A DNA stretch of 64,000 bases from positions 7,316,001 to 7,380,000 of the forward strand of contig CP018627.1 in NCBI GenBank assembly GCA_002021875.1, in the 5' to 3' direction. A program made the translations under genes and the position numbers. Shown here piece by piece: positions 48,881 through 52,363 of the stretch. How positions within the stretch are numbered: position 1 is the stretch's first letter; each line of letters opens with the position of its first letter. Under the pieces are notes generated by a model, which did not search any database, was not told where the DNA came from, and saw nothing but the letters and a program-made list of their open reading frames with translations. Source of the DNA: Streptomyces hygroscopicus (GTDB lineage Bacteria; Actinomycetota; Actinomycetes; Streptomycetales; Streptomycetaceae).

Positions 48881-52363
<3,483 letters not shown>

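Follow-up and report, generated by a model that had tools for sequence, protein, structure and literature searches.

Asn442 in the RNA polymerase β subunit of Streptomyces hygroscopicus is probably a naturally segregating wild-type allele on an exchanged haplotype

In E. coli, the substitution S531N in the β subunit of RNA polymerase leads to rifampicin resistance, as stated in the available text of PMC7073797. Asparagine also stands at the equivalent position of rpoB(R), the duplicated "magic" polymerase gene of Nonomuraea gerenzanensis, for which the excerpted part of PMC3536979 lists the changes H426N, S431N, F445M, S474Y, and M581D; S431 is the counterpart of E. coli 531, because it lies five residues on from H426, the equivalent of H526. 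This bears out the statement, in a preliminary description of the present locus, that a natural rifamycin-resistant rpoB copy of Nonomuraea carries asparagine at this site. The excerpt of PMC5431353 gives S531Y among the associated changes, at odds with this list, which we followed. It also reports that the back mutation N426H alone abolished both the resistance and the antibiotic activation associated with Nonomuraea rpoB(R) in S. lividans. Since S431N should have remained in the reverted gene, the loss of resistance suggests, as far as these excerpts go, that asparagine at 531 is insufficient in the Nonomuraea gene.

Within Streptomyces, the closest solved RpoB chains are split at residue 442. 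Chain 8dy7_C, which we take to be the S. venezuelae polymerase with Ser442, reads HKRRLSALGPGG, and 7vpd_C carries Asn442. The RpoB sequence of 7vpd is identical to that of 7x75 and other entries, and 7X75 is the S. coelicolor polymerase according to the available part of PMC10936776. The reference residue "S. coelicolor S442" used in the preliminary description is wrong, because the solved S. coelicolor polymerase carries Asn442. The available text of PMC2667423 gives asparagine as the wild-type residue 442 of S. lividans as well, and names N442Y among the antibiotic-synthesis-activating mutations of this species in its discussion of rifampicin-resistance mutations. RifR rpoB mutants of both S. 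lividans and S. coelicolor, with changes at positions 424, 433, 437, and 440, are given in the excerpt of PMC3536979; since such mutants were selected from these two species, strains with Asn442 would not already be fully resistant.

The window analyzed here is a stretch of 64,000 nucleotides of the S. hygroscopicus genome, in which rpoB, the single canonical gene for the RNA polymerase β subunit, lies on the forward strand at 48881..52363. The longest open reading frame (48851-52363, +) begins with a GTG codon at 48851, and in the alignment the TTG start at 48881 corresponds to the first residue of the solved chain 7vpd_C of S. coelicolor. The codon AAC at 50204..50206 (+) is in frame with this ORF and encodes asparagine, residue 452 when counted from the GTG and 442 from the TTG, at the position of E. 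coli 531 and M. tuberculosis 450. Both the codon and its assignment to the Ser531 site were thus described correctly, and so was the gene as the canonical rpoB: the protein matches NCBIfam TIGR02013 at full length with 1803 bits (cut-off 801), the rpoC ORF (52462..56376, +), our outside reference for the history of the gene, adjoins it at 52462, and a PF04565 search of the single-contig genome of 12,012,215 bases gave one match, hence one rpoB, with none beyond the main-operon copy. The rifampicin region (50150..50233, +) has the usual form apart from Asn442; the equivalents of Asp516 and His526 (the latter within THKRRLN) are kept, and threonine occupies the E. coli 518 position, as is common among the loci read. 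The protein is 92-96% identical to named Streptomyces loci, the best among the matches listed being S. morookaense. As had also been noted, S12 retains K43 and K88, seen in the translation of rpsL (56755..57126, +) and counted by eye.

The gene has Asn442 in common with the wild-type rpoB of S. lividans and S. coelicolor A3(2), and Ile364 too with the S. coelicolor chain, from which it differs in having threonine instead of asparagine at the E. coli 518 position and in further substitutions. It shares the asparagine with Nonomuraea rpoB(R) (S431N; excerpt of PMC3536979); however, rpoB(R) is a second, divergent copy, whereas the window holds the sole rpoB, and rpoB(R) has H426N, which is needed for resistance according to the available text of PMC5431353, whereas the window retains histidine. 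Unlike duplicated resistant genes (rpoB(R)/rpoB2), the gene is accompanied by no second rpoB in the 12.0 Mb of the genome and shows no H526N-type change. The S. lividans N442Y, Sac. erythraea S444F, and E. coli S531 mutants are altered at the same residue, but these are laboratory mutations as far as the excerpted sources describe them, whereas the asparagine of the window is an inherited clade state. Regarding other determinants, the genome has no match to PF12120 for an Arr rifampin ADP-ribosyltransferase. Two of its open frames match PF01326 (PPDK_N), a family that presumably also includes rifampin phosphotransferases.

The reading of Asn442 as a strain-specific resistance change is not supported. 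The earlier statement that resistance would extend to the whole polymerase has no support either, since Asn442 is the wild-type residue of both S. lividans and S. coelicolor, each of which was a source of RifR mutants in the excerpts cited above; asparagine is, to a large extent, shared with sensitive relatives, which speaks against the resistance reading. In Streptomyces, asparagine at the S531 position is not readable as rifampicin resistance, because about a fifth of the sampled species carry it, and a false resistance call is thereby removed.

Asn442 was found in 81 of the 390 same-genus genomes with an identified rpoB. The motif combining Asn442 with Ala443 matched 73 of 392 same-genus genomes and its any-codon form 382; the ten missed by the latter were eight with Asn442 followed by Ser443 and two in which no rpoB was found. 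These eight (G073, G388, G088, G138, G350, G037, G156, and G270; loci L255 and L257-L263) read HKRRLNSLGPGG and so represent another variant of the rif region. Of the remaining 309 genomes, 131 were read, all with Ser442, and the other 178 are known only as non-matching to the Asn motif. In the 212 genomes read, codon 442 is always one of TCG, TCC, AAC, and AAT. A phylum-wide sample yielded the Asn motif in 9 of 396 genomes, three of them of the same genus, with a pattern that misses AGR arginine codons. Among the 80 named loci listed, some of which did not match the motif and were then mostly read separately, asparagine occupies the site in S. hainanensis (L035) and Janibacter limosus (L071). 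At another rifampicin site, the His526 equivalent, we observed Asn, Ser, or Asp (TNKRRLS, TSKRRLS, TDKRRLS) in L073, L076, L078, L093, L096, and L108, which belong to Alloscardovia, Gardnerella, Leucobacter, and three MAGs.

Trees were built with FastTree from a 110-row set comprising the window, 45 of the 73 Asn genomes, 55 Ser genomes, and nine named loci; the Ser genomes were partly hand-picked, being chosen for motif variety among the any-codon matches listed. The rpoB tree held 108 of the 110 rows (L154 and L097, with short ORFs, were dropped) and the rpoC tree 109 (without L199). A second set of 212 rows, in which every AHBA-positive genome is present, took in the full 81 Asn genomes together with 131 Ser genomes, and is for that reason enriched for Asn442 and AHBA. 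On the rpoC tree, the window falls in a starred group of eight sampled rows, seven with Asn and one with Ser (G359, locus L202). Given this and the genus-wide frequency of 81/390, its residue is not unlike that of close relatives, as it would be in an acquired or selected RifR mutant. There are 19 Asn/Ser changes on the rpoB tree and 23 on the rpoC tree, at least 18 of the latter forced by starred branches, against a shuffled mean of about 36. Asn442 is therefore common within small clades yet labile across the genus. The question raised previously, whether asparagine is a clade trait, thus finds a divided answer: the clade of the window largely shares it, but contains a Ser row, and the residue has changed many times elsewhere on the rpoC tree.

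The local history of the gene around codon 442 is different. In trees of 600-nt segments with codon 442 removed, built from 104 rows (three outgroup rows were also taken out), only 7 Asn/Ser changes were required for the segment centered 63 nt upstream and 12 for that centered 363 nt upstream, versus 18-28 elsewhere (the average over 20 shuffles on the last tree was 34). When only third positions were used, in these 104 rows, three segments within codons 232-572 required 9-12 changes and those elsewhere 17-26. In the 212-row set, the best two segments required 11 (codons 262-412) and 10 (codons 322-472), neighboring ones 16-24, and far ones 27-37. The broader stretch in which third-position trees have the fewest changes spans codons 262-532 (49664..50476, +), and it is in the RRDR flanks that third-position distances match rpoC most poorly.

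For a sister-pair test, codons 332-502 (49874..50386, +) were taken as the core of the linked RRDR haplotype, with limits that are approximate and were set after the linkage had been seen. Of the 3499 third-position differences between the members of 15 close Asn/Ser pairs, 414 lay within this tract, compared with 7.06% expected; all 15 lay above expectation, 11 of them at p < 0.05, although the p values are optimistic because of the way the tract was chosen. Between the window itself and its Ser sister G359, 34 of 209 third-position differences lay in the tract, where 14.8 were expected. The excess in the sister-pair profile lies in the flanks of codon 442, and third-position linkage is uneven, with codons 382-421 at background association (mean V 0.12). 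A weaker excess was also present in 36 same-state pairs (442/5358, p 4.8e-4, optimistic likewise), so that the region is variable or exchanged in general.

The local phylogeny is hence in conflict with that of the flanks, as expected of a recombining allele, and the conflict between the RRDR haplotype and the rest of rpoBC points to homologous exchange between species. As only the four codons mentioned were seen, a switch between Ser and Asn takes two or more base changes, and import would therefore be easier than single steps. In the simplest reading, the Asn block would be old in the clade of the window, and G359 would have received a Ser block.

We consider it highly probable that Asn442 represents natural wild-type variation segregating in the Streptomyces housekeeping rpoB and is located on an exchanged haplotype, with a modest rifamycin effect at most. 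The haplotype would measure roughly 0.5-0.8 kb, contain the RRDR and usually carry Ile364; it would be passed between species by homologous recombination, the probable carrier, and inherited within clades such as that of the window. Any effect of the allele on rifamycin affinity would then be modest at most, and would not by itself amount to full resistance. The polymerase is an ordinary one, and the allele is ordinary as a resistance claim and moderately interesting as a recombining allele. The recombining haplotype is the new part of this analysis, for which we claim no priority. The swapped block of the rif pocket that distinguishes many pairs of close species represents a natural experiment, in which its effect on drug binding, on transcription, and on the production of antibiotics would lend itself to direct measurement.

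A bolder form of the exchanged-haplotype reading, which we put forward tentatively and regard as doubtful, is that the rif-pocket segment exists as two long-lived haplotypes, Ser442-Leu364 and Asn442-Ile364, which homologous recombination frequently transfers from one species to another. The two would be maintained in balance either through natural RNA polymerase inhibitors or because they differ in how they affect transcription and the production of antibiotics, and residue 364 would act as an epistatic partner. Alternatively, the haplotype might spread as a general protection, being useful where neighbors produce rifamycins or other inhibitors of RNA polymerase. The exchanged block does cover the rifampicin pocket, and some drug effect of Asn442 is possible by analogy with S531N, which raises resistance in E. 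coli (PMC7073797, available text). Nevertheless, we find general protection unlikely: going by the excerpts discussed above, Streptomyces with Asn442 can be selected for higher resistance and the Nonomuraea gene conferred none when its asparagine at 531 was not accompanied by H526N, and the literature searched on rpoB and rifampicin, in the parts available, yielded no MIC data for matched Asn/Ser strains.

The linked residue 364 is encoded in the window by ATC (49970..49972, +), for isoleucine. Among the 212 genomes, Ile364 occurs in 64 of the 81 with Asn442 and in none of the 131 with Ser442, Leu364 being present in the other 17 and in all 131, respectively. The rpoC tree yielded 17 independent pairs; Ile364 accompanied Asn442 in 13.3 of them, and none ran the opposite way (median p 2.4e-4). 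As controls we tested twelve other two-state columns, of 27 found besides 364. The column at offset +56 also showed strong linkage (Ile accompanied Asn in 9.4 pairs versus 0.1; Ile in 59/81 Asn and 29/131 Ser genomes), and the other eleven were weaker, the most lopsided being those at -118 (5.2 versus 2.7) and +242 (1.8 versus 4.6). Hitchhiking on one tract explains the linkage between 364 and 442; co-selection of both residues could lie behind part of it, and the third-position sites support import. Epistasis between the two is possible, because the codons with background association, 382-421, lie between them. The same gap, together with the strict absence of Ile364 from Ser442 genomes and the pair counts, would suit repeated point mutation, with the changes from Ser to Asn and from Leu364 to Ile arising together and compensating each other without recombination. 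This seems improbable, as third-position trees near the site group the Asn rows far better than those elsewhere, the changes from CTG to ATC and from TCG or TCC to AAC need at least two base changes and no intermediates occur in the 212 genomes, and Leu364 is retained in 17 Asn genomes.

Finally, it had been proposed that the asparagine might reflect an ansamycin made by the strain. Its genome contains an apparently complete ansamycin cluster, with AHBA genes, outside the window (G000:C1:9308654-9372871; loci L235-L239). The PKS ORFs, from 9314416 to 9355466, contain seven KS domains, six recognized by their active-site motif and one more by a Pfam scan that covered the PKS ORFs other than one of 5707 aa. 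They are followed by an amide synthase gene of the arylamine N-acetyltransferase-like family (PF00797; 9355486-9356319), one of three PF00797 genes in the genome. The cluster also has genes for a DHQ synthase, a class II DAHP synthase, a shikimate-dehydrogenase-like protein, an oxidoreductase, a ROK kinase, AMP ligases, and a FAD hydroxylase and, upstream, for a 3-hydroxyacyl-CoA dehydrogenase, an acyl-CoA dehydrogenase, and a HAD-type protein resembling FkbH. With seven KS domains and methoxymalonyl-type genes, we take it to be of the benzenic type, like those for geldanamycin or ansamitocin, and not of the 10-module type that inhibits RNA polymerase. The known targets of benzenic ansamycins are Hsp90 or tubulin. 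The gene content thus fits a predicted product that is a benzenic ansamycin rather than a rifamycin. The FAD hydroxylase was considered as a rifampin monooxygenase and rejected (156.8 bits, cut-off 800); it is 3-(3-hydroxyphenyl)propionate hydroxylase-like, at 620.5 bits.

An AHBA synthase query gave three matches in the genome, at 100, 72, and 54% identity, and 44 of 392 genus genomes have an AHBA-synthase-like gene (E 1e-80 or better). In the raw data, Asn442 with Ala443 is associated with AHBA, occurring in 16 of 37 AHBA-positive genomes (60% identity or more) versus 57 of 353 others (p 2.5e-4); with the eight further Asn genomes, the counts become 18/37 versus 63/353 (p 6e-5). In independent pairs on the tree including the tract, Asn went with AHBA in 0.9 and against it in 1.3 of 28 pairs, a test of low power that is biased to no difference because the rows are grouped by the haplotype itself. 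On the tree without the tract, the values were 3.8 with and 2.4 against in 27 pairs (median p 0.73), again with low power. As few pairs differ in both traits, a modest link between Asn442 and AHBA is possible. The proposal thus holds as to the presence of ansamycin genes, but the association of Asn442 with AHBA was not significant in this weak test once relatedness was controlled. That Asn442 was selected as self-protection, because the strain or its ancestors make an ansamycin inhibiting RNA polymerase, would agree with the three AHBA-synthase-like genes and the cluster at 9.308-9.373 Mb, with the raw association and with the lean of the pairs on the tree without the tract, but is very improbable, since this lean is not significant, the closest AHBA relatives (G011 and G229, 93 and 91% identity) have Ser442, the cluster is presumably not of the polymerase-inhibiting type, and Asn442 is also present in S. 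coelicolor, which is not known to produce an ansamycin.

The further AHBA-synthase-like genes of the strain, 72 and 54% identical to the first, lie at 1222397-1224669 (L212, L245) and 2936320-2937540 (L214, L251), and both adjoin an oxidoreductase-like ORF, the second as judged by eye. AHBA-synthase-like matches at 71-72% identity are also present in the clade genomes G055, G096, G150, G371, and G383.
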